64,000 bases of DNA from a virus: positions 19,125 to 83,124 of IMG/VR virus record IMGVR_UViG_3300044633_001393; one strand, given 5' to 3'. The position numbers were made by a program, and so were the translations under genes. The notes beneath the pieces are model-generated. The model was not told where the DNA came from. It saw nothing but the letters and a program-made list of their open reading frames with translations, and searched no databases. Shown piece after piece: positions 7,496 to 58,960 of this stretch; position 1 is the stretch's first letter; each line of letters opens with the position of its first letter.

Positions 7496-7786
7496 ATGAT
7501 ACTATTAACACGAATCGTTGAGGATTTAACTAACCCACAAGTTAAAAACGCCGTAGATCCATCTCTTTTAAAGTTAATTGACAAGGTAATCGATGACACA
7601 AATGTTTTGGTAGTTAATAACTTAAAAATGGTAAAGGATATTTTATCAAAAGAACCAATTGATAAGGCTAGATTAGACGTTGCACTAAGCAATTATAAAC
7701 GTTATTTTAATAGAGACAATGGCGGCACACCTGAAGTCATTCGTGGTATGACAATGCAAAATAAACTAGACGAGTTAGCAAAATGA
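7496..7786 (+). CDS. small protein with capsid-targeting-like N-terminus
   Basis: 96 residues, function not recognised. The start at 7496 (MILLTRIVED) is preferred over an upstream ATG at 7475, which falls between the terminator and the TATATTTATA element. The N-terminus is a short hydrophobic peptide ending in I-V-E, matching the [I/L]-x-E cleavage site of the T4 prohead protease. The rest is helical and charged. It overlaps the next gene by ATGA. Confidence 0.7.
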   Translation: MILLTRIVEDLTNPQVKNAVDPSLLKLIDKVIDDTNVLVVNNLKMVKDILSKEPIDKARLDVALSNYKRYFNRDNGGTPEVIRGMTMQNKLDELAK

Positions 7787-8304
7787 TTAGTTTAACTGAC
7801 ATTTTAAATGAAGTTTTATCTGAGTCTGATCCAAAAGTTGGAACTGGTAAAAAGCCAAAAGGATCTGATAGACGATTATATACCGATGAAAATCCGAAGG
7901 ATACGGTTAGAGTAAAATTTAAAACATCCCAAGACATTAAAGATACACTAGCTAGTAGTGGTTTTAAATCAAAAAGTCACAAAAGACAATCTCAAATTAT
8001 AAATCTTATACATCAGAGAGTTAGAGCAGCTTATCAAAATGCTAAAGATCCAAATGTTAAAAGCAGATTGAAAAGTGCTTTAGACTATGCTATACAACGT
8101 AAAGAGGCCTCAAAAGCAAAAACAATAAAATTAAATAAAGAAACATCCAATCCAGAATCTGGTAAATCATCTCCATATGGTTCTGGATATGGAGTGGTTG
8201 AAAATAATATAGAAGAGAAATGTTGGAAGGGATATACGCAAAAAGGTATGAAAACATTGTTTGGTAAAAAATATCCCAACTGCGTTAAAAAAACAAACAA
8301 ATAA
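7783..8304 (+). CDS. basic protein with CWKGY C-terminal motif
   Basis: 173 residues, strongly Lys-rich. The N-terminus MISLTDILNEVLSE contains two candidate gp21 sites (LNE, LSE). The C-terminus KCWKGYTQKGMKTLFGKKYP is a short domain I recognise from hypothetical proteins of T4-like phages, often at C-termini; its function is unknown to me. The middle (residues about 25-110) is basic and helical (HKRQSQIINLIHQRVRAAYQ), suggesting nucleic-acid contact. It is translationally coupled to the preceding gene. Probably a packaged internal protein, by analogy with T4 IPI-IPIII. Confidence 0.75.
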   Translation: MISLTDILNEVLSESDPKVGTGKKPKGSDRRLYTDENPKDTVRVKFKTSQDIKDTLASSGFKSKSHKRQSQIINLIHQRVRAAYQNAKDPNVKSRLKSALDYAIQRKEASKAKTIKLNKETSNPESGKSSPYGSGYGVVENNIEEKCWKGYTQKGMKTLFGKKYPNCVKKTNK

Positions 8305-8323
8305 TTTTATACCAATTATCAAA

Positions 8324-9097
8324 ATGATTAGTTTAAACGATTTATTATTAGAAGCCAAACTTCCTCAAAGCGAGCAAGATATGGATCTTTATGCTCGTAA
8401 ATACAAGAAGACTATAGATTATTTACGTACCAAGAACAAAGTACTATTGTTAACTACCAGTAATAGATGGAGTGGTCACAAAGACGATATTGCTAAGAGT
8501 ACACAATTAGCAATTAAAATGCAAGAATTATTAGGTAAAGAAAAAGTATCATTGATAGATACTACCAAATTAAATATAGTTCCGTGTGAGGGCAATGTAT
8601 CGTCAAAATGGGGAAATCATTGTGGTACAAAAGATTCATCTTTAAAAGATAAAGAAAAAAACCCAACAGGAGAACATCGTTGTTGGGCTAGTATTAATAA
8701 TAAGAACGATGAATTATGGAAAGTAAGTAAAGAGCTATTTGAAAGTGATACCGTTTTATTTTTTGCTAGTGTGAGATGGGGTCAAGCCAATGGTTTTTAT
8801 CAAAAATTGATCGAAAGATTGACTTGGATTGAAAACAGACATTCTACGTTGGGAGAAAGTAATATTGTTAAAAATATTGATTCAGGATTCATTGCAACTG
8901 GACAAAATTGGAATGGCAAAGATGTTACACAAACACAAAAAGAAGTACTTCAGTTTTTTGGATTCAAAACACCAGACCAATTATTTTGGAATTGGCAATT
9001 TACTAATAATAGTTTAGACGAAACTAAGAGTTCTTACAAAAAAGCAATTACTGTATTTGATAAAACATTTTTAAAACCATATGATAAGACTAAATAA
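8324..9097 (+). CDS. flavodoxin-fold NAD(P)H oxidoreductase-like protein
   Basis: 257 residues from the ATG at 8324, chosen because the protein then begins MISLNDLLLEAK, like its neighbours; an upstream ATG at 8261 lies inside the previous gene. After the N-terminal peptide (LLE site) comes a flavodoxin-like domain. NKVLLLTTSNRWSGHKDD is beta-1 and the phosphate-binding loop, and ESDTVLFFASVRWGQANGFY with KLIERLTWIENRH resembles the FMN-reductase family segment that contacts flavin and forms the dimer. A Cys/His-rich insertion lies between them (residues about 85-125). The likely role is flavin-dependent reduction of a small molecule or quinone; the substrate is unknown. The last 17 bases overlap the next gene. 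Confidence 0.7.
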   Translation: MISLNDLLLEAKLPQSEQDMDLYARKYKKTIDYLRTKNKVLLLTTSNRWSGHKDDIAKSTQLAIKMQELLGKEKVSLIDTTKLNIVPCEGNVSSKWGNHCGTKDSSLKDKEKNPTGEHRCWASINNKNDELWKVSKELFESDTVLFFASVRWGQANGFYQKLIERLTWIENRHSTLGESNIVKNIDSGFIATGQNWNGKDVTQTQKEVLQFFGFKTPDQLFWNWQFTNNSLDETKSSYKKAITVFDKTFLKPYDKTK

Positions 9098-10115
9098 CAT
9101 TTTAAGTGAGGTAATACAAGAAGGCGGCGCAGGTGGACATATGGCACATCCATTTGATTTTGTAAATACTGGCGCTAAATTGGTAGGTGTATTTGCGAAA
9201 GCAGTAAAGTCTCTGAAGCAAGGCGCCGGTAGTGTAAAGATTGACGGTGTTAATGCAAGTATCCGTATGATAAACAGCCAATTTGTAATGGATCGTGGAT
9301 CAGCAAAACCACTTGATATTAAGGGCATGAGACCCGAAGATTTGCCAAATAGATTTGAACCAGGTCATGGATTTATTAATATTGGAACTAAAGTAATCAA
9401 TATTTTCGATGAAGCGATTCCAAGTACCAAATCCGAATTAAAAAAGTTGGGCTTGTTGAACAATCCAAATATATTGTTTAATATTGAATATGTAGAAGGT
9501 ACAACAAACGTAGTTGGTTATGGTGATATTGGAAACTTTTTAGCAATTCATGGCTTAAAAGAGATCAAACCAAAGACATTTGGTAAGGATGGTAGTGTAA
9601 AATCCCGTGTTGCTGTTGAAATACCGTATGATAAAGCGGCAATGCAGTCCTACATCAATAAATTAAATAAGGTTGCAATGAAGTATGGATTCAAAGTACT
9701 AGGCAGCGTTGGTACATCATTTAAATCGGATCCAAATTTGGCCAAAGTATTGAGAGAACCAGTAACATTATATCCTACAGAAGTTGCTGAAACCAAGTCA
9801 TTAAAAGACTGGTTAAAAAATGTAAAAATCGATCTTCCACTTATCACCCGTGAACAATTTATTAATGCTTCAAACAGCAAAAATATTACGCAAGATTTTG
9901 CCGGTCAAGACGTTCAAAAGATTATAAATGATACCATTGTTTATTTAACCACTATCAAATTAGGAGATGAAGTATTAAAGAATGCTACTAGTGAGATTGG
10001 TGACTTAGATAAACATGAAGGAATCGTGGTTAGAGATCCAAATATTTATAACAATCCTTTCAAAATTACAGGAAGTTTTATTATAAAAGGTTTGGAAAGT
10101 AAGTTTAAGAAATAA
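9081..10115 (+). CDS. nucleic-acid ligase-like nucleotidyltransferase
   Basis: 344 residues with the signature of covalent nucleotidyltransferases (DNA/RNA ligases, capping enzymes): motif I K53-I-D-G followed by N-A-S-I-R, a motif III-like FNIEYVEG, and motif IV E313-G-I-V-V, with a Lys-containing motif V candidate (SFIIKG). K53 would carry AMP. The enzyme could seal DNA or RNA; family members with this architecture are often RNA ligases, but I cannot choose. The N-terminus MIRLNNILSEVIQEGGAGG has two [I/L]-x-E sites, then GGHMAHPFDF, which I associate with T4-like phage proteins of this type. A cleavable N-terminus on an enzyme suggests packaging in the capsid and delivery with the DNA (inference). 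Confidence 0.75.
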   Translation: MIRLNNILSEVIQEGGAGGHMAHPFDFVNTGAKLVGVFAKAVKSLKQGAGSVKIDGVNASIRMINSQFVMDRGSAKPLDIKGMRPEDLPNRFEPGHGFINIGTKVINIFDEAIPSTKSELKKLGLLNNPNILFNIEYVEGTTNVVGYGDIGNFLAIHGLKEIKPKTFGKDGSVKSRVAVEIPYDKAAMQSYINKLNKVAMKYGFKVLGSVGTSFKSDPNLAKVLREPVTLYPTEVAETKSLKDWLKNVKIDLPLITREQFINASNSKNITQDFAGQDVQKIINDTIVYLTTIKLGDEVLKNATSEIGDLDKHEGIVVRDPNIYNNPFKITGSFIIKGLESKFKK

Positions 10116-10133
10116 AATAAATACATATTTGTT

Positions 10134-12327: not shown

Positions 12328-12336
12328 ATACTTATA
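12327..12336 (+). promoter_or_regulatory. weak TATATTTATA-type element before portal gene
   Basis: AATACTTATA, two or three mismatches to the recurring element, ends 12 bases before the portal ATG in a 21-base gap. Confidence 0.25.
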
Positions 12337-12348
12337 TACTAGAATAAT

Positions 12349-14250: not shown

Positions 14251-14280
14251 TATAATTCCTACATATTTAACCACATTGAT

Positions 14281-14290
14281 TATATTTATA
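14281..14290 (+). promoter_or_regulatory. TATATTTATA element before prohead gene
   Basis: Perfect copy ending 16 bases before the ATG at 14307, in an AT-only leader without a ribosome site. Confidence 0.45.
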
Positions 14291-14306
14291 AATAATAATA
14301 AATAAT

Positions 14307-16161: not shown

Positions 16162-16168
16162 CACATAT

Positions 16169-16771
16169 ATGAAACAAGTATTGATAGACATATTACCATT
16201 TGAATTTAAAAAGACATCTTTAAATGAATCTCTTAAAGATGGAAAACTATACGTAACCGGCGTATTACAACGTGCGGATGCAAAGAATCAAAATGGAAGA
16301 GTGTACCCAGAAGATGTACTAAAGCGTGAAGCTGAAAAGTATATGCAAAACTTCGTAAAACAACGTCGTGCTATGGGTGAGTTGGATCATCCAGAAAGCA
16401 GCGTGGTTAACTTAAAGAACGTTAGTCACAACATTGTTGATATGGGTTGGGAAGACAAAGATTTGGTTGGAACAGTTGAAATACTGCCCACACCAAGTGG
16501 TAATATTCTTAGAGATTTATTGCAATCTGGAATTTTATTAGGTATTAGCAGCAGAGGATTAGGCAGTGTTAAAAAAGATATGAGAGAAGGTGCCGACATT
16601 GTACAAGACGATTTTGATTTGATCGCATTTGACTTTGTAAGCAATCCTAGTACACAAGGTGCCTTTATGTATCCTCAAGGCAAAATCAATGAAAGTGTAG
16701 AACAAAGAACAATTGTCAACCCATACGGTAATGTAGAAAGAATTATTCACAACATTCTATCAGAATTATAA
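16169..16771 (+). CDS. gp21: prohead core protease (T4 gp21-like)
   Basis: 200 residues from the ATG at 16169; an upstream in-frame ATG at 16106 lies inside the previous gene. Family S80 serine protease with the herpesvirus-assemblin fold. The catalytic His lies in AMGELDHPES and the Ser in LLGISSRGLGS. YVTGVLQRADAKNQNGRVYP is the typical N-terminal segment. It matures the prohead by cutting scaffold and capsid precursors after [I/L]-x-E. Its own sequence has such sites near both ends (SLNE-S, and ILSE-L at the C-terminus), consistent with self-processing. Confidence 0.94.
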   Translation: MKQVLIDILPFEFKKTSLNESLKDGKLYVTGVLQRADAKNQNGRVYPEDVLKREAEKYMQNFVKQRRAMGELDHPESSVVNLKNVSHNIVDMGWEDKDLVGTVEILPTPSGNILRDLLQSGILLGISSRGLGSVKKDMREGADIVQDDFDLIAFDFVSNPSTQGAFMYPQGKINESVEQRTIVNPYGNVERIIHNILSEL

Positions 16772-16783: not shown

Positions 16784-17215
16784 ATGAAATTAAAACATTT
16801 ACTAGAAAATTCCACTGAAGTAGCTTATAGCCCACTTACCAAAGAAGAAAAGTCAAAAATGGTTGGTGCTATTAGATCCTATAATGAATATCGCAAGGGA
16901 TTAAAAGCCGATTGTGTATATGAAACTGCACAAAAAATTATGGAGGCTGTTAATCTAGCAGAACGCTACGCAATTAAAGAATGTGGCGACTGGATGCAAG
17001 CCAAAATGGTTGAACGTGATATGAAAGAAATCAAAAGAGACGCTGCCAAAATGTATGAAGAAGCCAACAAAATGAAAGAAATTGAAAAACAACTTGAAAT
17101 GTTGTATGAACAAGTTGGTATGAGATTGGAACGTTATTTTGAAATTGCCGACCAAGTACACACTGATCCAAAACCACAAGAAGGCACTATTAACTCATCG
17201 GTATCGAATCAATAA
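16784..17215 (+). CDS. helical head protein with capsid-targeting-like N-terminus
   Basis: 143 residues. The N-terminus MKLKHLLENST ends in an L-L-E site for the prohead protease. The remainder is a long charged helix (AAKMYEEANKMKEIEKQLEM), probably coiled coil. Between protease and scaffold genes, it is a candidate prohead core or internal protein. Its last 26 bases overlap the converging minus-strand gene. Confidence 0.7.
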   Translation: MKLKHLLENSTEVAYSPLTKEEKSKMVGAIRSYNEYRKGLKADCVYETAQKIMEAVNLAERYAIKECGDWMQAKMVERDMKEIKRDAAKMYEEANKMKEIEKQLEMLYEQVGMRLERYFEIADQVHTDPKPQEGTINSSVSNQ

Positions 17216-18386: not shown

Positions 18387-19463
18387 ATGAGCGATCTATT
18401 AAAAGAAAGCATTGCGGATGCAAAGGCTGTACGTGAAACAGCATTGGCAAATGCAAAGACCTTCCTTGAAGAAAGTTTTGCAAACAGTATGAAAGAAATG
18501 TTTGCAGATAAACTCAAGGAAGAAATGGCAGAAGAAACCGAAGCACCAGAAGGTGAAGAAGGCAAGATTGAAGAAAAACTTGCATCTTCTAATATTGGTA
18601 AGGATGACAGCAATGTTGCTACAAAACAACACCCAACCAAACCATCACCAGCTTCAAATAAAAACACAACTCCAGCAGGTAAGCAAGAATTCGACGTAAA
18701 GCTTGAAGAAGAAGCTGCCGTTGAAGAAGGTGCTGAAGTAACTAGTGAAGAACTAGACGAAATTCTAGCAGAACTAGAAGGTGAAGTAGTATCCGAAGGA
18801 GATTCCGACGATGCCGGTGAATCTGATGATTCAATGGAAGAAGAAATTAATCTAGACGAACTTCTAGCAGAACTAGAAGGCGAAGATCCAGCAGCTGCAC
18901 CAGCACCTGCTCCAGCTCCAGAAGCTCCTGTTGCTCCAGCCGCTCCAGCTGCTGAAGTACCAGCTCCAGCCCCAGCTCAAGTTCCATCTCCTTCAGAAGG
19001 TGAATACTCAGAAGAAGTATCCGCTGAAGAAATGGCAGAAGCTCTAGTAGCTATCAACGAAGAAAACGAACAACTAAAGTCTCAATTGAGCGAACACATC
19101 AAGACTGTAAAGTATTTGAAGAGTGTTCTATCTGAAACAAATCTATTGAATGCTAAGTTGCTCTACACCAACAAATTGTTCAAAGGTAAAGCTCTTACCG
19201 AAGATCAAAAGTTGAAGATCATCAACACTTTCGACTTGACCAAGAATATTCGTGAAGTCAAGTTGGCATATACAGTTTTAGCCGAATCACTTAATTCCGG
19301 TGCATCAGTTGTCAAGAAAAAGACCAATACAACTGCTCAAACTATCACCGAAGGTTTGGCAAGCAAACCAGTATCCAGTACAAAGCCTGATTCTACCATT
19401 GTAGAACCTCAAGCTGAAGTAATGGCTTCAAGATTCCAAAAACTCGCAGGAATCAAGAAGTAA
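18387..19463 (+). CDS. gp22: prohead scaffold protein (T4 gp22-like)
   Basis: 358 residues from the ATG at 18387, chosen because it follows GAAAGG and gives the family-like start MSDLLKESIADAK; an upstream ATG at 18222 would add an unlike segment crossing the intergenic promoter region. Highly acidic, with an Ala/Pro-rich central linker (about residues 165-210) and coiled-coil C-terminal half (EEMAEALVAINEENEQLKSQ). Ends ASRFQKLAGIKK, typical for gp22. It forms the prohead core and is digested by gp21 (LLKE, LLAE and similar sites are plentiful). Immediately precedes the capsid gene, as in T4. Confidence 0.9.
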   Translation: MSDLLKESIADAKAVRETALANAKTFLEESFANSMKEMFADKLKEEMAEETEAPEGEEGKIEEKLASSNIGKDDSNVATKQHPTKPSPASNKNTTPAGKQEFDVKLEEEAAVEEGAEVTSEELDEILAELEGEVVSEGDSDDAGESDDSMEEEINLDELLAELEGEDPAAAPAPAPAPEAPVAPAAPAAEVPAPAPAQVPSPSEGEYSEEVSAEEMAEALVAINEENEQLKSQLSEHIKTVKYLKSVLSETNLLNAKLLYTNKLFKGKALTEDQKLKIINTFDLTKNIREVKLAYTVLAESLNSGASVVKKKTNTTAQTITEGLASKPVSSTKPDSTIVEPQAEVMASRFQKLAGIKK

Positions 19464-19515: not shown

Positions 19516-21342
19516 ATGAGTATGGATGTAAAAAGTCTATTGACAGGAAATATGAATCCACAAGCCAAATTGATGGCTGAAACACGTGGACTACAATCCA
19601 AGTGGGAAAAGACAGGCCTCCTAGAAGGTTGCCAAGGTGTTGAAAAAGCACATATGTCAATCCTATTGGAAAACCAAGCAAAACAATTGCTTGACGAAGC
19701 AACCACCACCGGTACCTCTACCAGTTCAGAACAATGGGCTGGTGTAGCTCTACCATTGGTACGTCGTGTATTCGCTGAAATCGCCGCTAAGGAATTCGTC
19801 AGCGTACAACCAATGAATCTACCATCTGGTCTAATTTTCTATCTAGACTTCAAGTATGGTACAACCGCTCCTGGTAGTGATTTGCGTAACTTGAACAACG
19901 GTAGTTCCGTAACTACCCGTGCAGGTAAGCAATTGAACGACAGTTTGTTTGGTGGTACAGGTAAGAAGTTGGGTTCAACTGATGACGCAGTACGTGGTCT
20001 ATACGGTCAAGGTGCTTTTGCTTATTCAGTTCGTCCAGTAAGTAGCTCTGCTATTACCCTAGCTAAGAGTGCAACTGCAACCGCAACTGGTAACACCATC
20101 CAAACCGCTTCTTGGAACGACGTTCAATTTGCTGCTGAATTAAGCGCATCTGTCGTAGCTAAGAAGTTGTTCAAGGTTATCTTGAACCACGACGACAACA
20201 CCACTGGTGTTGCTGGTCAAGGATATATGTACAACGTTGACTTGAACGCAGTACGTTCATTCAACTTGATTTCAGGTTCAGTTGCACCAACTTCTCTAAG
20301 AAGCAATGGTTTGGTATTGAACACCTATTCAAAAGCAATTAACACTGGTAGTTTGAGCAATCCATTCTATCAATCCGTATATATCGTATCCGCTTCTAAT
20401 AGCGCATTCGGTGGTGCAGCAAGCAACGTTAAGTTGATCTATAGTCTACAACCTACCGATAACCTACGTGGTGACTTCGAAGCTGGTAAGACCCCAGGTG
20501 AAGGTTCCGGTACCGCTGGTAACGTTCCTACACAAAGCATCGATACTGATATCAGTATCCCAGAAGTAAACTTGGTACTAAACAGCGAACCAATCGTTGC
20601 TAAGACCCGTAAGTTGAAAGCAGTCTGGACCCCAGAATTGGCTCAAGACTTGAACGCATATCACTCCATCGACGCAGAAGCAGAACTTACTGCTCTATTG
20701 AGTGAATATGTATCTATGGAAATCGATCTTGAAATCCTAGACATGTTGAACGAAGCCGTTCAAGGCATAACAACCGAAGCTTGGTCCGCCCAAATCGGTG
20801 TTGAATTCAGCAAGGGATTGAATGCAACTACTGGTGAAGCAATCTTCACACGTAATGCAAACAGTTCACCAAACCGTACTGCTTACGTAAAGAGCACTTG
20901 GTTCCAAACTCTTGGAAACAAGATCCAAAAGGTATCTAACACAATCCAAAAATTGACCCTACGTGGTGGTGCAAACTTCTTGGTCGTAAGTCCAGACGTT
21001 GCAACTATCCTAGAATCAATCCCAGGATATGTAGTAAACACTGATGGTGATCAAGCTAAGTTCGCAATGGGCGTAAGCCGCGTTGGTAGCTTTGCTTCTC
21101 GCTTCCAAGTTTACAAGAACCCATACATGACCGATAACGTAGTATTGGTTGGTTTCCGTGGAAACAACTTCCTAGAAACCGGTGCTGTATATGCTCCATA
21201 TATCCCACTAATCCAAACTCCATTGGTCTATGATCCAGTGAACTTCACTCCACGTAGAGGCGTAATGACCCGCTACGCTAAGAAGGTAGTGCGCCCAGAG
21301 TTCTATGGAAAAGTTATTATCGGCGATCTCGATACCGTATAA
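19516..21342 (+). CDS. gp23: major capsid protein (T4 gp23-like)
   Basis: 608-residue precursor. The N-terminus MSMDVKSLLTGNMNP and the segment GVALPLVRRVFAEIAAKEFV followed by QPMNLPSGLIFYLDFKYG are hallmarks of gp23. The prohead protease should cut after E61 (LLDE-A62), close to T4 position 65. The C-terminal half (ILDMLNEA, GGANFLVVSPDVATILES, YAPYIPLIQTPLVYDP, MTRYAKKVVRPEFYG) follows the HK97-fold family. Followed by its own terminator. No separate vertex protein gene (gp24) is visible. Confidence 0.96.
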   Translation: MSMDVKSLLTGNMNPQAKLMAETRGLQSKWEKTGLLEGCQGVEKAHMSILLENQAKQLLDEATTTGTSTSSEQWAGVALPLVRRVFAEIAAKEFVSVQPMNLPSGLIFYLDFKYGTTAPGSDLRNLNNGSSVTTRAGKQLNDSLFGGTGKKLGSTDDAVRGLYGQGAFAYSVRPVSSSAITLAKSATATATGNTIQTASWNDVQFAAELSASVVAKKLFKVILNHDDNTTGVAGQGYMYNVDLNAVRSFNLISGSVAPTSLRSNGLVLNTYSKAINTGSLSNPFYQSVYIVSASNSAFGGAASNVKLIYSLQPTDNLRGDFEAGKTPGEGSGTAGNVPTQSIDTDISIPEVNLVLNSEPIVAKTRKLKAVWTPELAQDLNAYHSIDAEAELTALLSEYVSMEIDLEILDMLNEAVQGITTEAWSAQIGVEFSKGLNATTGEAIFTRNANSSPNRTAYVKSTWFQTLGNKIQKVSNTIQKLTLRGGANFLVVSPDVATILESIPGYVVNTDGDQAKFAMGVSRVGSFASRFQVYKNPYMTDNVVLVGFRGNNFLETGAVYAPYIPLIQTPLVYDPVNFTPRRGVMTRYAKKVVRPEFYGKVIIGDLDTV

Positions 21343-21452: not shown

Positions 21453-22196
21453 ATGAAAAGTGGTATATACAAAATTACAAATGTTAAGAATGGCAAGTTT
21501 TATATTGGTTCTGCTAAAGATATTGATCGTCGTTGGTGGGAACATAAAAATGATTTAAAAAAGAATAAACATAAGAATCCTAAATTACAACACGCTTGGG
21601 ATTTTTACGGGGAAAACAGTTTTGAATTTATTATATTAGAAAATGTAATAGAATGTGAATTGTTTAAACGAGAACAATTTTATTTAGATATGTTTAAACC
21701 CTATATGCGTGATATAGGTTATAATATTACCCCAACCGCAAGTGGAGGCGATAATTTTACACATAATCCTGATAAAGAAGAAACTCGTCAGTTACTATCT
21801 GATATTAATCTAGGAGCTAAAAATCCTATGCACGGTAAAAAGCATAGTGATGAGGCTAAAGAAAGGCAACGTGATCGTGCTGTAGGACGTTATACTTTGG
21901 AGTGGTTTGTTGACAAGTATGGTATTGACAGTGGTACACTTAAGTACAAGGAGAGAAATGACAAATTGGCTAATCGTAATATTAATTACAGTTATGATAA
22001 TGGATTAAAAGGCAAAAAGCGTGGTGCTATGAGTGATGAAATGAAACGTAAGATTAGTGAACAAAAGAGAAATTTTGCGCTTAGAAAGAATGAATTTGTT
22101 GATGATTTAAAGAGTGGTAGTTTTACTAACAATGCATTAAGTGAGAAGTATGGAGTATCATTAACCACGATCAAATTACATAAAAGAAAATATTAG
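21453..22196 (+). CDS. GIY-YIG homing endonuclease with NUMOD3 and HTH
   Basis: 247 residues. N-terminal GIY-YIG nuclease (MKSGIYKITNVKNGKFYIGS; R in DIDRRWWEH; catalytic Glu in FKREQFYLD; N in YNITP), then a NUMOD3 DNA-binding motif (NPMHGKKHSDEAKER), linker repeats and a C-terminal helix-turn-helix (ALSEKYGVSLTTIKLHK). This is the layout of free-standing T4 Seg-type homing endonucleases. It sits between the capsid terminator and the accessory cassette with its own host-type promoter, and the adjacent capsid gene is not interrupted. It may have helped mobilise the flanking island. Confidence 0.9.
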   Translation: MKSGIYKITNVKNGKFYIGSAKDIDRRWWEHKNDLKKNKHKNPKLQHAWDFYGENSFEFIILENVIECELFKREQFYLDMFKPYMRDIGYNITPTASGGDNFTHNPDKEETRQLLSDINLGAKNPMHGKKHSDEAKERQRDRAVGRYTLEWFVDKYGIDSGTLKYKERNDKLANRNINYSYDNGLKGKKRGAMSDEMKRKISEQKRNFALRKNEFVDDLKSGSFTNNALSEKYGVSLTTIKLHKRKY

Positions 22197-23262: not shown

Positions 23263-23475
23263 TTATATTATATAAAAAAGACCTTTGGAATTATATACTA
23301 CAGTTCTAATTTTGGTAGCATTAATCTTATTGATACCAAGTCTATCTATTACTTGAAATGGATCAGGGTGATTATTTATAGGAGCTGCCATAACTCTATC
23401 CTTTATTTTGTATACATCCAAGTCTGTATTAACAATACTTGGATGATATTGTCTTACTAAAGGCATTGTTCTCAT
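23263..23475 (-). CDS. small hypothetical protein coupled to the cyclase
   Basis: 70 residues starting MRTMPLVRQYHPSIVN; no family recognised. The start codon overlaps the cyclase stop (ATGA), so it is translationally coupled and probably real. No signal peptide or membrane segment. Confidence 0.6.
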   Translation of the reverse strand: MRTMPLVRQYHPSIVNTDLDVYKIKDRVMAAPINNHPDPFQVIDRLGINKINATKIRTVVYNSKGLFYII

Positions 23476-25247
23476 ACTGGTTTATTTGTTGTTGGTTCTG
23501 CTTTCTTTACTCTACTAGATGGAAATGATTTGTTACCAAAATCACTACCGTGTAAACTATACAAATGCATAACTACACCGTGTTTTACAACCACATCCCC
23601 CAAGTCATTTACTAATACATATGGTGGTCTATCATATTTTAACATTACTGCTGAACTAACCAACAAATGATTGCTTTCACCTGCATCCATTACTCTTTGA
23701 GCATAGTTGATACCATCACCACTGATATTGAGATTGCCATTAATATCTTCCATTGGTATTACAGGTCCACAATGTACACCCATTCTCATTTGTAAATCCG
23801 GTCTATCCTTTACTGCTTTAGCTATAGTAACTGCACAATTCATTGCATCTTCCAAATAAGTAAAGAATCCCAATACCATACCGTCACCAGTAGGTAATAT
23901 AATTAACTTTTCAAGCGCATTAGCTGTTTTGTATTGCATTGTAGACTTAACCAATGCACCCAAATCTTTACAAGCCTTCTTTTGTTCATCTGTTGTTTTC
24001 TTACTATAAGCAACAATATCCATAAAGAATATATAACCTTCTTGTTCTACGTCCAATTGCAATCTACCAGATTTGACTTCTACATCAACTTGTTCAACTT
24101 TCTTGACAACTTGTTTGACGGGTTTAACAACTTCTACCTTCTTTTCTTCTTTCTTTTCTACCACTGGAATATCTTTAAGTTTCAAGAAATCTTTCCAGTT
24201 AATTTTCTTAGCTGGTGCATCTTTTTTCTTTGGTTCTTTTGATGCTTGTTCTTCTTCGTGTTTCTTTATTGCAGCTTCTTCACGATTACGTTTTTCAACA
24301 AACAATGCAATTTGCTTTTTAACTTCATCTGTGATGTATATGTTTACATCTTTTCCACCACCACCAATATCGTGTTTCTTTTTTCTTTGAGCACCTTTGG
24401 ATTGCAGATATGTTTGCATTTCTACATTACCCGTCTTAAATGCCAAATCCAACGGAGCAATTTCACCTTTGAAATCTGCACCGTTAACATTCGCACCCAA
24501 ATGTACCAAAAATTCCACCATATCAACATCGTTAGCGTTAACGGCATAATGTAGTGGCATCCATCCATTCTTTTCATCTCTGCCATTGATTTTACCATCT
24601 TTATCAAAGAACGATTGTACACCTTCAAAATCTCCTGTTTCTGCGCAGAAATGAATACTAACACCTCCTGCGGATTTAGCACCGTACTTATTCAATAACT
24701 TAACAATGTCACCTCTATTGGTATTGGATAGTACGTCAATAGGATTATTTTTACCCAAGAAATCTTTCTTGTTAACATCAGCTCCTCTTACAATTAGATA
24801 TTCAACCAAGTGTTTTTGTCCGTAATTTACTGCATAATGTAGTGCGGTCCAACCTTTGCCAGCGTCAACTTCATTGATATCAAATCCCTTGTCTAACATT
24901 TCTTCAATAGAAACGATATCACCATTTTTTGCGGCTAAATGGAAACTACTACCGCTACTGTATTTTGCACCTCTTTGTTGTAGTATTTCTGCGATATTTT
25001 TAAAACCTTTTTGTTCAGCTACATCCAGTGCTGTATTTTTACTGGTCCAATCTTTACAGTTGGGATCTGCACCGTGATTTAACAGTAGTTTTACGATTTC
25101 CACTTGATTTTCTTCTACAGCAACAACCAATGGTGGATTGCCTGTATCATCGTCTCTTTGATTGACATCTACTTTTTCTTTTTCGATACAGTTGTAGACG
25201 TTATCGTATAACCCACGTTTGATGTGGGTAAAAATGTTAATAGCCAT
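23472..25247 (-). CDS. ankyrin-repeat / class III nucleotidyl cyclase fusion
   Basis: 591 residues. Residues about 1-290 are ankyrin repeats (NPPLVVAVEENQVEIVKLLL, WTALHYAVNYGQKHLVEYLI, WMPLHYAVNANDVDMVEFLV, each followed by G-A-D/N-V/P-N). A Lys/Glu-rich linker follows (about 290-400). Residues about 405-570 are a class III cyclase: metal-binding D410 in GYIFFMDIVAYSKK, second metal Asp D455 in PTGDGMVLGFF, MGVHCGPVIP, and the transition-state pair N-x-x-x-R in GDGINYAQRVMDAG. Both metal sites and the Asn/Arg pair are intact, so activity is expected as a homodimer. Base specificity cannot be read from the sequence. Ankyrin repeats would sense or recruit a protein partner. Such a fusion is unusual for a phage. 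Upstream genes in the same direction encode two membrane proteins. Confidence 0.9.
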   Translation of the reverse strand: MAINIFTHIKRGLYDNVYNCIEKEKVDVNQRDDDTGNPPLVVAVEENQVEIVKLLLNHGADPNCKDWTSKNTALDVAEQKGFKNIAEILQQRGAKYSSGSSFHLAAKNGDIVSIEEMLDKGFDINEVDAGKGWTALHYAVNYGQKHLVEYLIVRGADVNKKDFLGKNNPIDVLSNTNRGDIVKLLNKYGAKSAGGVSIHFCAETGDFEGVQSFFDKDGKINGRDEKNGWMPLHYAVNANDVDMVEFLVHLGANVNGADFKGEIAPLDLAFKTGNVEMQTYLQSKGAQRKKKHDIGGGGKDVNIYITDEVKKQIALFVEKRNREEAAIKKHEEEQASKEPKKKDAPAKKINWKDFLKLKDIPVVEKKEEKKVEVVKPVKQVVKKVEQVDVEVKSGRLQLDVEQEGYIFFMDIVAYSKKTTDEQKKACKDLGALVKSTMQYKTANALEKLIILPTGDGMVLGFFTYLEDAMNCAVTIAKAVKDRPDLQMRMGVHCGPVIPMEDINGNLNISGDGINYAQRVMDAGESNHLLVSSAVMLKYDRPPYVLVNDLGDVVVKHGVVMHLYSLHGSDFGNKSFPSSRVKKAEPTTNKPV

Positions 25248-26726: not shown

Positions 26727-27335
26727 ATGATCAAACTTAATGACTTAATAGAGAACGATTCGTTGTGTCCGATGGCACATCCTAAGAACATAGAACCAGT
26801 GATGAGTTCTTATTTACGTTATCATATTGACAATAAAATTCCACTTAGCGAAAACATTTTTAGAACCTATAGTGAGTCTTATTTTGATTTAATCGAAGAA
26901 GTTCGTACTTTGTATTTTCAAAATTTAATAGAATTGTGTGACGCTGACGCTGAATTGGTTGAAAGTGATTTGGGTAAAAAGGCTATATTTGAAGGTAGAG
27001 AAGTGTATTTGGATGCGCCTATCGAAGACGAAGAAGATTTATTGATGGAACTTAAGCATAGAGGACGCACTGTTAATTTAAGTAGACCATTTAGAACACC
27101 CGGCGGTCCTAAAAAATATGCTGTATATGTTAAATCTAAGAATGGCAAAGTTAAAAAAGTAACATTTGGAGATCCAAATATGAGAAGCAGAGCTAGTAGC
27201 AAGGCTCGTCGTAAGAGTTTTGCAGCTAGACACAGATGTAGTCAAAAGAAAGATAGAACAACGGCTGGATATTGGAGTTGCAGAAGTCATAGAATGAAAT
27301 CGTTGGGTAATAAAGGTAAAGGTAAATACTGGTAA
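26727..27335 (+). CDS. DUF5872-like protein with capsid-targeting-like N-terminus
   Basis: 202 residues. The N-terminus MIKLNDLIENDS carries an L-I-E site. The C-terminal 90 residues (LSRPFRTPGGPKKYAVYVK, VKKVTFGDPNMRSRASSKAR, SFAARHRCSQKKDR, TTAGYWSCRSHR) match the DUF5872 pattern found in T4-like phages: a basic domain with paired Cys and Trp-Ser-Cys, possibly nucleic-acid binding. The stop overlaps the next start (TAATG). A candidate packaged protein. Confidence 0.78.
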   Translation: MIKLNDLIENDSLCPMAHPKNIEPVMSSYLRYHIDNKIPLSENIFRTYSESYFDLIEEVRTLYFQNLIELCDADAELVESDLGKKAIFEGREVYLDAPIEDEEDLLMELKHRGRTVNLSRPFRTPGGPKKYAVYVKSKNGKVKKVTFGDPNMRSRASSKARRKSFAARHRCSQKKDRTTAGYWSCRSHRMKSLGNKGKGKYW

Positions 27336-27601
27336 TGAGTCTACCGTTTATAGAAAACCCACTGGGTAACAGTCAGTATATAAGAGAATTTAGTTCCGAT
27401 GTAGCTACTCACGAACTGGAATGGCATATAGATCGTGAAGACAGAACCGTTGAAGTTATAGAAAATAACAATTGGCACTTTCAATTAGATAATAATTTAC
27501 CACAATTACTTAAAGAAACAATATTTATACCTAAAGAAACATACCACCGTGTAATAAAAGGCACAGGTAATCTAAAAGTAAGAATAACAAAACACATATG
27601 A
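27335..27601 (+). CDS. small conserved phage protein, cupin-like
   Basis: 88 residues. The pattern HELEWHIDREDRTVEVIENN, WHFQLDNNLPQLL and IFIPKETYHRVIKGTG resembles a short conserved protein of T4-like phages. The order of His residues and a beta-rich outline suggest a minimal cupin or double-stranded beta-helix, with possible metal binding by WH and YH. Function unknown. Overlaps both neighbours by a few bases. Confidence 0.65.
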   Translation: MSLPFIENPLGNSQYIREFSSDVATHELEWHIDREDRTVEVIENNNWHFQLDNNLPQLLKETIFIPKETYHRVIKGTGNLKVRITKHI

Positions 27602-28917
27602 AATTTATTGATTTATTAACAGAAGTTAAAATGTACGAAACACTTGGGTTACCTGATGACAGTATTATCCCACTAGATACGTTTGTATGTGAATGTAAAA
27701 ATTGCGTAAATCAATCTCTATATGAAGCTATAAATGATACCGATAACAATTTAAAGATATGTTTGACTGAAGCGAACAAAAAGGAGCCTATTAGTTTTGA
27801 GTTGGCCGAATTAATGAAGAATATTGCCCGAGACACTCAAGGAAGATTAAAACTGTTGAGTGTATTAAACGATCCAAAAACACTGAAGTCTTTCTTAGAT
27901 GACAAAGGATATTTGACTGCAATTTTATATTTGGCTCCCTCTGATTCATCAGGTCACGAAGTGTGTCCAAAGAAAAGTCCGGAATGTAACGCTGGTTGTT
28001 TGAATTTTGCTGGTAACCCTGCATATCTAAAAGCAAAATTAGCAGCAAGAGCTAGAAAAACTCGTTGGTTGTTTGGTGACAAATTGACATCTGATGAGAT
28101 GAAAAATATTCCTACAGATCCAAAAATTATAGATAGATTTTATGGCAAAGGTAGACCCGGACCCGAAGGTAAACGTGGTAGAATATTGAATCCAATGCGT
28201 CCTGAAGACTTCATTGAAAGATTGCAAATTGAAATGGAGTTTTTGAAAAAAGTGGCTGCTAAATACAATTTAAAGTTATCGGTTAGATTAAACGGTACGA
28301 GCGATCTTGATTTTCATAAAAAATTGGAAAGTTGGAAATCTGCAAATCCAGATGTTAAATTTTATGACTATACAGCCGTGTTTAAATGGGCAATGCAAAG
28401 TCTTGAAGATCCTTCAAAACCACATATGACTTTTTCAAGAAAAGAAACTTTACAAAACAATATAGAATGTGAAAAATATTTGAAGGCTGGTGGTAATATT
28501 TCCGCAATATTTGATGAATTACCAGAATATTATCGTGGTTATAAAGTAATTGATGCAGATAGAACCGATTTGAGATTTTTAGACGATAGTGATCGACCAA
28601 TTGATCCTGATACAGGTAAACCCGTGGGTGTAATCGCCGGATTAAAGATGAAGGGATTTAGATTAAAAGACGCATTTGCCTTGGGTATAATACAAAATAA
28701 GGGACCAGAAGATACATTCGTAATAAGAACCAAGGAATTGAGGAAAAGATTTGGAGATAAGTATTTTACACAAAAAATTCATTGGGGTGATCGCGCACCA
28801 ACAGAGCCAAACAATATTACTGCTAAACAGATCTATAAAGATAAAATCAAGAATTATTTAAATAAAATATCAAGTAAATTGAAAGGTACAGCTGATAAAA
28901 CGGATGAAAAAATATGA
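27598..28917 (+). CDS. Gp88-like protein with capsid-targeting-like N-terminus
   Basis: 439 residues. The N-terminus MKFIDLLTEVKMYETL contains an L-T-E site. Residues about 90-330 match the phage Gp88-like family: LTAILYLAPSDSSGHEVCPK, SPECNAGCLNFAGNPAYL, AARARKTRWLFGD, LKLSVRLNGTSDLDFHKKL and FAYDYTAVFKW-type segments. The family has a conserved set of cysteines near the N-terminus and no settled function; a metal or Fe-S site is plausible. The C-terminus is basic. The N-terminal extension with four further Cys (FVCECKNCVNQ) is unusual. Confidence 0.75.
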   Translation: MKFIDLLTEVKMYETLGLPDDSIIPLDTFVCECKNCVNQSLYEAINDTDNNLKICLTEANKKEPISFELAELMKNIARDTQGRLKLLSVLNDPKTLKSFLDDKGYLTAILYLAPSDSSGHEVCPKKSPECNAGCLNFAGNPAYLKAKLAARARKTRWLFGDKLTSDEMKNIPTDPKIIDRFYGKGRPGPEGKRGRILNPMRPEDFIERLQIEMEFLKKVAAKYNLKLSVRLNGTSDLDFHKKLESWKSANPDVKFYDYTAVFKWAMQSLEDPSKPHMTFSRKETLQNNIECEKYLKAGGNISAIFDELPEYYRGYKVIDADRTDLRFLDDSDRPIDPDTGKPVGVIAGLKMKGFRLKDAFALGIIQNKGPEDTFVIRTKELRKRFGDKYFTQKIHWGDRAPTEPNNITAKQIYKDKIKNYLNKISSKLKGTADKTDEKI

Positions 28918-43678: not shown

Positions 43679-44587
43679 ATGCAAATGGGCAAGAAAATAT
43701 TCGTAATTTATCCTGGTAGATTTCATCCCTTTCACAAAGGTCACAAAAGTGTATACAACTACCTAACCACTAAATTTGGTGGTAATGATGTATACATAAC
43801 AACCACAGGTGTTACAAAATTGCCAAAATCACCATTTACTTTCAATGAAAAAATGCAAATGATGATTACCACAGGTATACCGGCAAACAAAATACTAAAC
43901 GTCAAAAACAACTACAACTTGAAAAGTGTAGCTAATCAAATACCAATCAATATAGAACGTGATATTATTATTTTTGCAGTTAGTGAAAAGGATATGATTG
44001 AAGATCCAAGATTCAAAAACTTTGTAAAAAAAGATGGATCTCCTTCTTATTTACAGCCATTGCCAAAAAATCAATCCAAATTAGACCCAGCCATAAAACA
44101 CGGATACTTGATAACAGTACCAACTGTAGATTTTACAGTACTAGGGTTACCGGCTAGAAGTGCAAGTCAATTAAGATCTCAATATGCTACATTAACCCCA
44201 GAACAACAAAAGGCTTTTATTATCGATTTGTTTGGTAATTACAATACAAATGTTCATAATATATTAAACAATAAATTGGGTAAAATTACTGGTAAATTAA
44301 CCGAAAAACAAAAGAAGTTATTAAAGAAATTGATTGTGGGTATAATGAAAGAAGACGAAGCTAAAATAAATTCTGCAAGAAAAAAGTATAATCAAGCTGG
44401 ATTGGTTCTTCGTACCGTTGAACTTGATGCGGCACAACAAGAACTTACAAAAGCAAATGACGATTTAAAAGCTGCAACTACCCCCGAAGAAAAAGCTGCG
44501 GCTGAACTACGTGTAAAAAACAAAAAAGATGCAGTAGACAGTAAAACAGCCGCTCGTGATGCTGCTCAACATCAATTAAATACCTAA
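43679..44587 (+). CDS. cytidylyltransferase-like (NMN adenylyltransferase-type) enzyme
   Basis: 302 residues from the ATG at 43679 (or 43685); an upstream GTG at 43655 lies inside the terminator. The nucleotidyltransferase signature is PGRFHPFHKGH (H-x-G-H), with FTFNEKMQMMITTGIP and a later SASQLRSQY segment corresponding to the 'S-x-x-x-I/L-R' ATP-binding motif. Most like NadM/RibL-type adenylyltransferases that build NAD or FAD. The C-terminal 90 residues are a charged helical tail (ELDAAQQELTKANDDLKAAT), perhaps for oligomerisation. Likely role: NAD synthesis or salvage during infection. Confidence 0.78.
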   Translation: MQMGKKIFVIYPGRFHPFHKGHKSVYNYLTTKFGGNDVYITTTGVTKLPKSPFTFNEKMQMMITTGIPANKILNVKNNYNLKSVANQIPINIERDIIIFAVSEKDMIEDPRFKNFVKKDGSPSYLQPLPKNQSKLDPAIKHGYLITVPTVDFTVLGLPARSASQLRSQYATLTPEQQKAFIIDLFGNYNTNVHNILNNKLGKITGKLTEKQKKLLKKLIVGIMKEDEAKINSARKKYNQAGLVLRTVELDAAQQELTKANDDLKAATTPEEKAAAELRVKNKKDAVDSKTAARDAAQHQLNT

Positions 44588-52023: not shown

Positions 52024-52028
52024 GTTAT

Positions 52029-55273: not shown

Positions 55274-55278
55274 ATCAA

Positions 55279-55306
55279 TTGACATTTGGTGTAAACAGTA
55301 TACACT
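55279..55306 (+). promoter_or_regulatory. sigma-70 promoter of polymerase-like gene
   Basis: TTGACA, 16-base spacer, TACACT (or TATACA at 55299 with a 14-base spacer). Predicted start 55311-55313, on the GTG start codon itself. Confidence 0.7.
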
Positions 55307-55312
55307 AAAGAT

Positions 55313-56611: not shown

Positions 56612-56624
56612 ATATATTTATATC

Positions 56625-56634
56625 TATATTTATA
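56625..56634 (+). promoter_or_regulatory. TATATTTATA element, 4 bases before start
   Basis: Perfect copy followed by ATAG and the ATG at 56639; another AATATATTTATA stretch lies just upstream (56611-56622). Confidence 0.5.
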
Positions 56635-56638
56635 ATAG

Positions 56639-58960
56639 ATGAACTTTAAATCATTAGTAAACGAAATTTGTTGTGACAATCGTATTAAGAACGGTGTATT
56701 GGATCTTAAGAACGAAGATCACGTTTTTATATTGCAGGAATATCTAGAGAAAGCTGGATATAATATCGATGAGATAGTAGAAAAGACCGCTAGGTTATTT
56801 GAAGCGGGTAGATTTCCAGATCGACAAGCATATAATAAAGATGGTATACTTGTAACATTTCCTAATAAACAATACAGAGATAGAGCTGTTAATAAAGGCA
56901 CTCACTTCGCTGAAAATCCCAAAAAGGCTCAAGCTAATATTTTTAAAGCTGATGGTGAACAAGGAGTCGATACACAAACAGATTCAGAACCATCTAAGAA
57001 ACAACCTGCCACGTTAGATCAAACATTAGATAAAGATATCGAAGGTGATAGTGGTGTAGACAAAAGAACACCAGCTGAGAAAAAGCAAGATGCTTGGGGA
57101 GTGGAAGCTATATTAACAGGTCAAACGCCACTTGTTAATTATAGTGTAGATGAAGCTAAAAGTTATGGATTTTACAACAAAGGATTCAAATGGTTTGATA
57201 CTAATGGAGATTTAATAGGTGAACAGATATACGATGAAACTATTTCTAAAAACGTAATTGTAGCTGATGCAATTGCGCCTGCTAAATATATTGATAAATC
57301 AAAAAAAATAAAAGACATTATAAACAAAGAACTTTTGGTTAAGTTGGAGTTCTTAAAAAATGCAGATAATAATACACGGACTAAATTATTTGAAACTATA
57401 CCTATTTTGTTTGCTTACGGAATTACTGATTTTAAAAATGCTAAAACCGGACAAGATTACAACGATTTTGCGATTGGATTTTTATCTGCTTGGGGCAATT
57501 TAAGAGAAAAATTAGAGAATATACCAAACGAAACCAGTCGTATAGAAAATCTTAAATTATACGATTTAGTCGATAAAGATTTAAAACAAATTGGTGGATT
57601 TGACGGAGTTTCTTTAGCGGAATTAGGAACGCCTACTGATTTTATTCATAAATCAATAGATAGTTTTTATAAAGCAGCCGATGATTATAACAGAAAATTT
57701 TTAAAAGGTGAACAAGAAACAAAATCAAATACCGCAGACATTGTTTTGATTTATGGTGGCACAAAGGCAGATGTATTAAACGCTTTAAAAGATGGCAATA
57801 TTGATGAACAAGATGTCGATTCGATGGCTAAAATAAAAGATAAAAATATTAAATTTGCTTTAATTAGTTTAAAAGCAGGTGGTGGAAAATTGGGAAGAGT
57901 TTTAACTCAATTGGCACAATACGTTGGTCAATCTTTGGCACCTACTCCATCGGATGAACCAGTGCCACTTAGTGAAGGAATAATTGATAAAATATCAAGT
58001 AGCATAAAATATGCTATAGATAAAATTAAAAGTATACCAGATATTGCTAAAAATTATTTTCAATCATTCATAAAAGCAATAAATCCATTTACTACAAAAA
58101 TAAATAACTTTTTTTTCAAAAAATTAAATACGGATGTAAAAATTTTACAATCTTCGGAATTAAAAAATCTAGAAAATTTAGAGCGTCAACTTGAAAGAGA
58201 AATAGGTACTATTTCAGAAAAATCTAGTAAGAAATGTGATAATAAACATACAGAATATACGGAGACCATTAATAAAAATTTGAATTTATTTAAAAACATT
58301 TTGAAATCAAGTACAGAGGACATAACTCTTATTAACAAAATTTCCGAATTATCAAACAATAAATTTCTAATTGAATTTTTTCCAATTGAAATAAAAACGG
58401 TACAATTGCAACAAATTGAAAATTTGAAAAAAAATCTAATATATGTAATAAATCAAATTGACGGAGATTTTAAAATTGGAGATTGTTTAGAACGATATAC
58501 ACTCAGACCCATTTTTAAATACAGAGCTAATGTTTTGTCACTTAAGTATATAGATTTAATCTTAAACAATGTATTAAAAGATGTAAATACATCAGATCCT
58601 AATTTAATACGTGAAGAATTTATAAAATTATCTAGTCTTCTTTCAACCGAAGCTGTATTTGGCAAAAACGTTAGTTTACCTCTAATCAAATACACTGGTA
58701 AAAAGATTGAAAGGTTGAGATATAAAGGTAATTTTAAATTAGAAATTCCAAAAGAGTTCGAAGATGTAAAATTGGGTAAGATCCGAATCAATATGGTGGT
58801 TGACGAAGGATATTTAACGGTAACTCTTTATTTATTCGCTGGAATTGTTATGAAAGATGATATTGCTACACCAACATATTCTGTTTTTAGTTTAGATAGT
58901 AGTAGTGGTAGTTCGTTTACGTTTAGTGTAGAAGGAAAAGAAGTCGTTGATAAAATATGA
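56639..58960 (+). CDS. large hypothetical protein with capsid-targeting-like N-terminus
   Basis: 773 residues, no overall family recognised. It begins MNFKSLVNEICCDN, similar to the other short N-terminal peptides; a clear L-F-E site follows in KTARLFEAGR. Residues about 60-100 (PDRQAYNKDGILVTFPNKQY, RDRAVNKGTHFAENP) resemble a short domain seen near the N-terminus of other T4-like phage proteins. A central helical region (about 270-460), a Lys-rich coiled coil (about 490-560) and a beta-rich C-terminus follow. Expressed from its own element between polymerase and gp32. May be a large internal head protein, comparable in idea to T4 Alt, but no ADP-ribosyltransferase motif is visible. Confidence 0.65.
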   Translation: MNFKSLVNEICCDNRIKNGVLDLKNEDHVFILQEYLEKAGYNIDEIVEKTARLFEAGRFPDRQAYNKDGILVTFPNKQYRDRAVNKGTHFAENPKKAQANIFKADGEQGVDTQTDSEPSKKQPATLDQTLDKDIEGDSGVDKRTPAEKKQDAWGVEAILTGQTPLVNYSVDEAKSYGFYNKGFKWFDTNGDLIGEQIYDETISKNVIVADAIAPAKYIDKSKKIKDIINKELLVKLEFLKNADNNTRTKLFETIPILFAYGITDFKNAKTGQDYNDFAIGFLSAWGNLREKLENIPNETSRIENLKLYDLVDKDLKQIGGFDGVSLAELGTPTDFIHKSIDSFYKAADDYNRKFLKGEQETKSNTADIVLIYGGTKADVLNALKDGNIDEQDVDSMAKIKDKNIKFALISLKAGGGKLGRVLTQLAQYVGQSLAPTPSDEPVPLSEGIIDKISSSIKYAIDKIKSIPDIAKNYFQSFIKAINPFTTKINNFFFKKLNTDVKILQSSELKNLENLERQLEREIGTISEKSSKKCDNKHTEYTETINKNLNLFKNILKSSTEDITLINKISELSNNKFLIEFFPIEIKTVQLQQIENLKKNLIYVINQIDGDFKIGDCLERYTLRPIFKYRANVLSLKYIDLILNNVLKDVNTSDPNLIREEFIKLSSLLSTEAVFGKNVSLPLIKYTGKKIERLRYKGNFKLEIPKEFEDVKLGKIRINMVVDEGYLTVTLYLFAGIVMKDDIATPTYSVFSLDSSSGSSFTFSVEGKEVVDKI

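Follow-up and report, generated by a model that had tools for sequence, protein, structure and literature searches.

In phage T4, the basic internal proteins IPI-IPIII and Alt carry a capsid-targeting sequence (CTS) of about ten N-terminal residues, which is cut by gp21 after [L/I]-x-E. According to the portion of the source available, positions 4 and 7 of the CTS serve targeting and positions 8 and 10 processing, a register reported for IPIII, and the propeptide of the T4 capsid protein comprises 65 residues (PMC9026906). For phage P1, the accessible part of another study describes an N-terminal signal that sends the large protein DarB into the head, with the first 30 residues being enough for a reporter (PMC9024508). 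In SPN3US and phiKZ, as excerpts of a further paper describe, inner-head proteins possess N-terminal propeptides that are cut by the prohead protease, and the SPN3US paralogues gp53 and gp54 have their first 15 residues in common (PMC5694885).

The window analysed here is the whole stretch of 64,000 nucleotides from an IMG/VR virus record of 83,124 bases. The first-pass annotation had noticed that eight of its proteins share an N-terminal peptide ending in [I/L]-x-E, and this was confirmed: all eight N-termini are real, translate as given, each from an ATG codon, and are mostly kept in relatives. The proteins, named in the following by the first position of their gene, are:

7496..7786, + strand: 96 aa, leader MILLTRIVE (7496-7522); probable cargo, no match for the body
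7783..8304, + strand: 173 aa, basic (pI 10.0 after the predicted cut), leader MISLTDILNE (7783-7812); probable cargo
8324..9097, + strand: 257 aa, leader MISLNDLLLE (8324-8353); probable cargo
9081..10115, + strand: 344 aa, leader MIRLNNILSE (9081-9110); probable cargo
16784..17215, + strand: 143 aa, acidic, leader MKLKHLLE (16784-16807); probable prohead core protein
26727..27335, + strand: 202 aa, leader MIKLNDLIE (26727-26753); extra [IL]xE sites and a basic C-terminal domain (phrog_7595)
27598..28917, + strand: 439 aa, leader MKFIDLLTE (27598-27624); GP88 domain (PF17338, E 8.8e-24), probable cargo
56639..58960, + strand: 773 aa, MNFKSLVNE (56639-56665); doubtful member

The exact T4 register (hydrophobic residues at positions 4, 7 and 8 plus Glu10) is present in 7783, 8324 and 9081, and shorter variants of it occur in the other five. 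The bodies show no detectable relation to each other: blastp with 12 residues removed gave a best E-value of 0.28 among the pairs listed. When retention was scored by a looser regular expression and distinct proteins were counted, the leader was kept in 47/47 relatives of 9081, 29/29 of 16784, 51/55 of 8324, 20/22 of 7496, 7/9 of 7783 (one with a 7496-type leader), 5/6 of 27598 and 4/5 of 26727; relatives of 56639 read MNFKSLVNE in 16/18 and MNFKSLIND in 2/18 cases. Counts for single positions come from relatives picked by family and length alone and replace earlier start-filtered counts. In 9081 relatives, Leu4 is found in 46/47 and Ile7, Leu8 and Glu10 each in 47/47 sequences, and among 48 relatives of 8324, Leu4, Leu8 and a Leu or Ile at position 7 are present in all and Glu10 in 46. 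Leu4 of the latter family is written with five different codons, positions 3, 5 and 9 are variable, and leaders shifted by an indel still retain an LxE.

The same window encodes the head genes to which such leaders would be related:

16169..16771, + strand: gp21-like prohead protease, Peptidase_S77 (PF03420, E 4.8e-31; phrog_207, 2.8e-53)
18387..19463, + strand: scaffold-like core protein at the gp22 position, 358 aa, dense in [IL]xE
19431..19460, + strand: C-terminal tail of the scaffold, RFQKLAGIKK, with an IVE site ahead (Glu codon 19404-19406)
19516..21342, + strand: gp23-like major capsid protein (PF07068, 3.3e-72)

The proposed gp21-like protease was borne out by its matches to PF03420, with a score of 103.3 bits against a curated cut-off of 27, and phrog_207. 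The LLDE of the capsid protein ends at residue 61, as had been claimed (Glu codon 19696-19698), and aligns with the T4 cut after Glu65, so that we predict a cleavage site here. The scaffold-like protein gave no match in Pfam or PHROG; its tentative assignment as a gp22-type scaffold is based on its position between protease and gp23 and on its density of [IL]xE sites (4.75 per 100 aa vs a median of 1.15). A general C-terminal self-cleavage of the protease at NILSE was rejected, as an [ILV]xE among the eight C-terminal residues is seen in only 19/124 relatives.

Judging from these sequences, the N-terminal peptides are very probably capsid-targeting propeptides of a T4-like head, which would be cut by the S77 protease and whose cargo would be kept with the DNA. 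We infer docking, cutting, packaging and delivery as follows. During formation of the prohead core, the leader M-[IK]-x-L-x-x-[IL]-[IL]-x-E might dock its protein either on this core or on the inner surface of the capsid, and the S77 protease would then cleave after the Glu of [IL]-x-E. The same enzyme probably also cleaves the capsid protein behind its LLDE and makes many cuts in the core, and the mature, mostly basic proteins would remain in the head and probably exit with the DNA at infection. The earlier interpretation stands in part. Its centre, a common targeting and cleavage signal as in T4, is well supported by register, conservation, protease, capsid site and recurrence on many families with no detectable relation; but 16784 is better seen as part of the core, 56639 is a weak member, and delivery into the host along with the DNA is a prediction.

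Besides these class A leaders, there is a second leader class (class B) in related phages, in which [KR]MQxLAGI lies between [IL]xE sites. In 80 IMG/VR loci, it was found on 52 body families that blastp did not connect with one another, and an [ILVF]xE site follows LAGI in 51/52 families vs 0.13 for a 10-residue stretch. The class B motif is also the C-terminal end of all 93 scaffold relatives in a pool chosen by homology, behind the same type of site, and only three other proteins of 2,036 have this motif. The scaffold tail in the window, RFQKLAGIKK, shares it with the class B leaders of related phages. Among scaffold-bearing stretches, 7/8 have the full tail motif; the remaining locus (L590) reads RWQVLAGP, with the scaffold frame continuing into the capsid frame. 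Inspection by eye gave no sign that the leader is coupled to the R[MWF]Q residue of the scaffold. As far as the sequences tell, class B cargo seems to gain access to the head through mimicry of the scaffold tail ([IL]xE...R[MWF]QxLAGI), and class B would play the same role as class A. The S77 protease was found in only 13/27 leader-bearing class B records examined, namely in 6/6 of at least 79 kb and 7/21 below 79 kb, and the gaps in the shorter ones may reflect incomplete fragments. It was also found in nine of 14 other records with the class B DNA pattern. In loci selected by their protease, class B was seen in 0/252 families, which counts against the reading. Among isolates, the LAG leader (27 aa) matched only four Flavobacterium phage immuto records, and the LAG motif was absent from the open papers searched.

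It is also possible, albeit rather unlikely, that the leaders are core-assembly elements and that the proteins are core or morphogenesis factors, which are cut up or expelled before packaging and not delivered. This would fit 16784 and 26727, both rich in [IL]xE, and a protease-adjacent family in which the leader on homologous bodies is of class A, of class B or of another type, depending on the phage. Given its place between protease and scaffold and its acidic (pI 5.4), [IL]xE-dense body, 16784 is indeed likelier to belong to the core and to be cut up than to be delivered. However, internal sites are sparse in 7496, 7783, 9081 and 27598 (0.60-1.19 per 100 aa; 1.63 in 8324) and these five have basic bodies, some of them enzyme-like; among leader-bearing bodies elsewhere, one has a DnaJ domain and one a lysozyme-like domain. 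The predicted pI after the cut is 8.2-10.0 for the six candidate cargo proteins, and as a set they are more basic than the remaining 54 proteins (P 0.005; all eight, P 0.03). Membership of 56639 (pI 6.0) is weak, because it is acidic, distant from the head genes and has Asp for Glu in 2/18 relatives. Six of the eight proteins look like cargo by sequence.

Pfam at E 0.001 gave no match for any of the eight except 27598, Pfam and PHROG tied no leader-bearing protein to a named T4 internal protein, and phmmer against the PDB had no useful match for 9081 and 8324. For 9081, modelling suggests a nucleotidyltransferase/ligase-like body with KIDG at 53-56: all 50 structural neighbours listed are ligases (best T4 RNA ligase 1, Z 8.7), K53, D55 and G56 are almost invariant in the family and E136 and K328 invariant, and there are weak ligase matches by Foldseek (E 0.022) and Pfam RNA_ligase (best E 0.043, 9/29 members). 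In tblastn against a phage collection, its sole match was Microcystis phage Mel-JY01, and 8324 had none. A flavodoxin-like FMN/NAD(P)H reductase fold is suggested for 8324 by a low-confidence model (pLDDT 58.3; Foldseek RosB E 2.9e-4, SsuE E 1.0e-3). The protein 7783 has a CWKGY...NCV motif at its C-terminus.

The start M-[IK]-x-L-x-x-[IL]-[IL] would form an amphipathic helix, and the leaders could address another target such as the membrane or the replisome, the match to the gp21 site being incidental. We regard this as improbable, since the Glu is retained in nearly all relatives, class B has its site behind LAGI and matches the scaffold tail, and three of the four ORFs that the register picks from 265 called ORFs of T4 (IPII, IPIII, gp24 and 61.1) are head proteins.

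The motif search that had been proposed for the rest of the genome and for relatives gave enrichment in both. Among the 60 called proteins (at least 60 aa) of the record, the regular expression M-x(4,6)-[IL]-[ILV]-x-E matches five, where the rate at internal positions predicts 0.42 (P 7e-5), a count of five being reached by 0/200 shuffles of N-terminal residues; it misses the shorter forms in 7496, 16784 and 26727. The T4 register occurs in 3/60 vs 0.13 expected (P 3.5e-4). No clear class A member was added to the eight; 10738 and 12349 were set aside by eye, their [ILV]xE starts being weak. Among relatives, the register is present in 14/459 pooled families vs 1.05 expected (P 7.5e-12) and in 13-18/252 families of the protease-selected loci vs 0.39 expected. 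The enrichment rests on these two sets, since tallies from the largest pool are biased by loci retrieved through leader patterns; the pattern was originally derived from the window itself, three locus searches were queried with leader-bearing proteins, and some one-member families may be false ORFs that dilute the counts. As a control, 143 proteins were taken from parts of four phages lacking an S77 protease, of which 0/143 have the register and 1/143 match the regular expression. Some results count against the reading: the expression is not enriched in the isolate immuto (3/199 vs 1.6 expected, P 0.22; register 3/199, P 0.012), Stenotrophomonas phage CM1 has the protease together with a leaderless GP88 homologue and the register in 0/57 proteins examined, only 3/18 class A records have the protease (one of them under the cut-off), and it was not found in a 54-kb record with lysozyme-like cargo. 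That eight short peptides chosen by eye in one genome look alike by chance, from AT-rich codons and initiation bias, is hardly credible and rejected at the level of pooled families (459-family and protease-selected sets), given 0/400 N-terminal shuffles at the pooled counts and the empty register control.

On the reading as capsid-targeting propeptides, a signal known mainly from T4 becomes a readable code, and the leaders mark dozens of uncharacterised phage proteins as likely virion cargo from sequence alone, which makes them candidates for counter-defence or host take-over. The copy of the scaffold tail gives a concrete idea of the docking partner, for which the available literature names an affinity for the core, and the leaders suggest new tags to load proteins into phage heads. 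We lean towards a more general view, in which T4-like phages of natural waters use an open packaging code, in which one of a few interchangeable N-terminal tags would suffice to send any protein into the head; [IL]xE-x-[KR]MQxLAGI[IL]xE would copy scaffold tail and protease site, so that the cargo is freed by the same protease, and the proteins injected ahead of gene expression would form a large and rapidly changing set in each genome.

Compared with the described systems, the class B leader is new here. In SPN3US and phiKZ, several propeptides exceed 100 residues, a gp22 counterpart is given as unconfirmed in giant phages in the text available, and the common start is on two paralogues (PMC5694885), whereas the window leaders are on unrelated bodies. 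P1 differs in that, by the accessible text, the N-termini of its Dar proteins have no consensus and a separate scaffold was not identified (PMC9024508). Like T4, the window phage combines leaders of about ten residues ending in [IL]xE with an S77 protease and gp23 in one genome; however, its bodies are ligase-like, flavodoxin-like, GP88 or unmatched, and it is an uncultured phage of another lineage. While T4 gp24 is a capsid vertex protein and the window leaders are on predicted internal cargo, its propeptide MAKINELLRE has a register of I4, L7, L8 and E10 identical to that of the window leaders.

The window spans positions 19,125-83,124 of an IMG/VR phage record 83,124 bases long. In addition to a gp23 capsid protein (PF07068, E 3.3e-72), a portal and a tail sheath, the genome encodes the gp21-like protease suggested by the first-pass annotation, which belongs to the Peptidase_S77 family of prohead proteases (PF03420, E 4.8e-31). 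Judged by the capsid protein, the closest named relatives are Mel-JY01, a Microcystis phage (49.9%), and immuto, a Flavobacterium phage (48.5%). All eight similar N-termini, belonging to the proteins starting at 7496, 7783, 8324, 9081, 16784, 26727, 27598 and 56639, are present in the translation exactly as first described, and we detected no relation between the leader-bearing bodies, as had been claimed. Three other genes are mentioned here:
21453-22196, plus strand: GIY-YIG homing endonuclease with NUMOD3 motif, immediately after the capsid gene, a position like that of segD in T4
23472-25247, minus strand: ankyrin-repeat protein whose C-terminal part matches the adenylate/guanylate cyclase domain (PF00211, E 5.7e-5), seemingly unusual for a phage
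43679-44587, plus strand: cytidylyltransferase-like domain, standing alone

The proposed motif search in the rest of the genome and in relatives gave more matches than expected, both in the record and in pooled protein families. The original pattern, M-x(4,6)-[IL]-[ILV]-x-E, matches five of the 60 called proteins (0.42 expected). In T4 IPIII, residues 4 and 7 are reported to be important for targeting and residues 8 and 10 for processing (PMC9026906). The corresponding register (hydrophobic at 4, 7 and 8, Glu at 10), derived from T4 rather than from the window, matches three of the 60 proteins (0.13 expected) and, in a pool that combines the window record with immuto, part of Mel-JY01 and related loci of IMG/VR, 14 of 459 families (1.05 expected, P 7.5e-12). 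Since three quarters of the searches behind the near-relative loci used leader-bearing proteins as queries, loci picked by the protease alone are the fairer set; there, the register occurs in 13-18 of 252 families (20 random draws; 0.39 expected). Among 143 proteins covering part of each genome of phages without S77 protease (crAss001 45, phi17:2 40, Tunturi_5 34, HTVC120P 24), the register matches none and the original pattern one. The register is also absent from 57 proteins of phage CM1, where the protease is present, and immuto by itself is weak, with 3 of 199 proteins by each test (P 0.22 for the original pattern, 0.012 for the register). As a benchmark, the register picks four of 265 called T4 ORFs, namely gp24, 61.1, IPII and IPIII, the recovery of the last two following from their use in its definition. 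The product of gene 61.1 (18966-19130 of the T4 record) is annotated as hypothetical; its N-terminus, MKTFKEFIKE, is very like the IPIII leader and therefore 61.1 may be a T4 internal protein.

Of these class A leaders, those of 9081 and 8324 are conserved among relatives that were selected by family and length only. The 47 relatives of 9081 all have Ile7, Leu8 and Glu10, and 46 share Leu4, the remaining one having Phe. In those of 8324, Leu4 (five codons), Leu/Ile7 and Leu8 are found in 48 of 48 and Glu10 in 46. Positions 3, 5 and 9 vary.

The bodies behind the leaders are diverse. In protein 9081 a KIDG motif is accompanied by conserved Glu and Lys residues, and the 50 structural matches listed for its AlphaFold model (pLDDT 78.6) are all RNA/DNA ligases, the best among them being T4 RNA ligase 1 (Z 8.7; Foldseek weak, E 0.022). 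The low-confidence model of 8324 (pLDDT 58.3) matches flavodoxin-like FMN reductases (E 2.9e-4). Protein 27598 carries a GP88 domain; by eye, GP88 homologues in HTVC120P and CM1 start near the domain and have no such leader. In Tunturiibacter phage Tunturi_5 (L352:14428-15765) an InPase domain precedes GP88, and the fused product is annotated as a minor head protein. Class A leaders also occur on a DnaJ-domain protein (PF00226, E 2.1e-9; locus L036) and on a lysozyme-like protein truncated by the locus end (PF00959, E 7.5e-4, slightly under the cut-off; L538). Scanning for MIxLN[ND]ILxE in 80 of 119 loci gave 80 ORFs of at least 40 aa in 17 body families, some being chance matches within longer frames. 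In Mel-JY01 (L267:11243-13162), a cytidylyltransferase-like domain, a 9081-like region and the class A leader MGKLINILLSE are united in a single protein. At L496:2635-3486, the ligase leader and the first 20 residues are fused to a different protein (ROS_MUCR match just under the cut-off, C-terminal part HNH-like by eye), as though an endonuclease gene had inserted itself after the leader.

A second leader, class B, resembles the scaffold tail. Two immuto proteins begin with MKKQILSEQF[RK]RMQ[KF]LAGIITE. Every one of the 93 scaffold relatives (280 aa or longer) in a homology-chosen pool has the motif [KR][MWFIL][QKRE]xL[AS]G[ILVM] within 25 residues of its C-terminal end (RFQKLAGIKK in the window's scaffold-like protein, 18387). 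Of all 2,036 pooled proteins only three others contain it, two of which are the immuto leaders. In all 93 scaffolds an [ILV]xE site lies at most 16 residues ahead of it, against a background of 0.64, such sites being common in scaffolds. VISEVSDAVRRMQKLAGII is an example of a scaffold tail and ILSEEFKRMQKLAGI of a class B leader. An IMG/VR pattern scan (80 of 120 loci examined) revealed 61 in-frame N-terminal class B leaders on 52 body families, separated at blastp E 1e-4. [ILVF]xE follows LAGI within 10 residues in 51 of the 52 (background 0.13 per 10 residues), with Glu exactly four residues after LAG in 43 families, and such a site precedes the motif in 44.

The 41 records with the class B DNA pattern comprise 27 leader-bearing and 14 other ones. 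S77 protease is present in 13 of the 27, including six of six with at least 79 kb, and in nine of the 14. For class A, two leader-bearing records above 130 kb possess the protease (one match under the curated cut-off); overall it is present in three of 18 records, chance matches included, and in neither of the two chance-match records above 80 kb. Several leaders of both classes coexist in fetched genomes. The gene between protease and scaffold (16784 in the window) carries class A in the window and class B in L586 and L589, and one family of 18, some members of which adjoin the protease, shows class A in eight, class B in two and other starts in eight. Class B was found in none of the 252 families of the protease-selected loci, and is therefore not seen in the protease-flanking stretches of the window's near relatives. 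A third type, FNLKKFLxENKLT, occurs in nine of 1,249 families of a pool partly selected by leader patterns and in 5-6 of the 252.

Most likely, the leaders would dock at the binding place of the core proteins, and the cargo would then be caught inside the prohead and released by the protease. The class B receptor would be whatever holds the scaffold tail, as the likeness in sequence points to; in other viruses the C-terminus of the scaffold binds the capsid protein. By analogy with T4, the cargo might be delivered to the host.

Capsid targeting sequences and their cutting by gp21 are already known in T4 (PMC9026906), and targeting or protease cutting is discussed for P1 (PMC9024508) and SPN3US (PMC5694885). 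Among the open papers listed for capsid targeting, prohead proteases and internal proteins, no title or opening abstract describes such leaders in environmental phages, and RMQKLAG, RMQQLAG and MQKLAGI are absent from the open literature searched. In the window and L002, 12 of 60 genes have TATTTATA in the 40 nt preceding them (0.4 expected), and nine of its 13 copies end 3-6 nt ahead of the ATG. It is the reverse complement of the T4 late box TATAAATA and perhaps a late promoter yielding nearly leaderless messages.

The six likely cargo proteins (all but 16784 and 56639) exceed the remaining 54 in basicity (P 0.005; P 0.03 with all eight included), and T4 internal proteins are described as basic (PMC9026906). 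T4 gp21 cleaves after L/I-x-E, and a 65-residue propeptide is lost from gp23 (PMC9026906). Glu65 of gp23 aligns with the LLDE site at residue 61 of the window's capsid protein, located as first described, and with LISE in Mel-JY01 and IVSE in immuto. Beyond residue 12, [IL]xE sites per 100 residues amount to 5.00 in 14307, 4.62 in the scaffold and 3.05 in 16784, to 3.68 in 26727, 1.84 in 56639 and 1.63 in 8324, and to a lower 0.60-1.19 in 7496, 7783, 9081 and 27598. This pattern resembles T4, where core proteins are cleaved to pieces and virion proteins shed N-terminal propeptides (PMC9026906).
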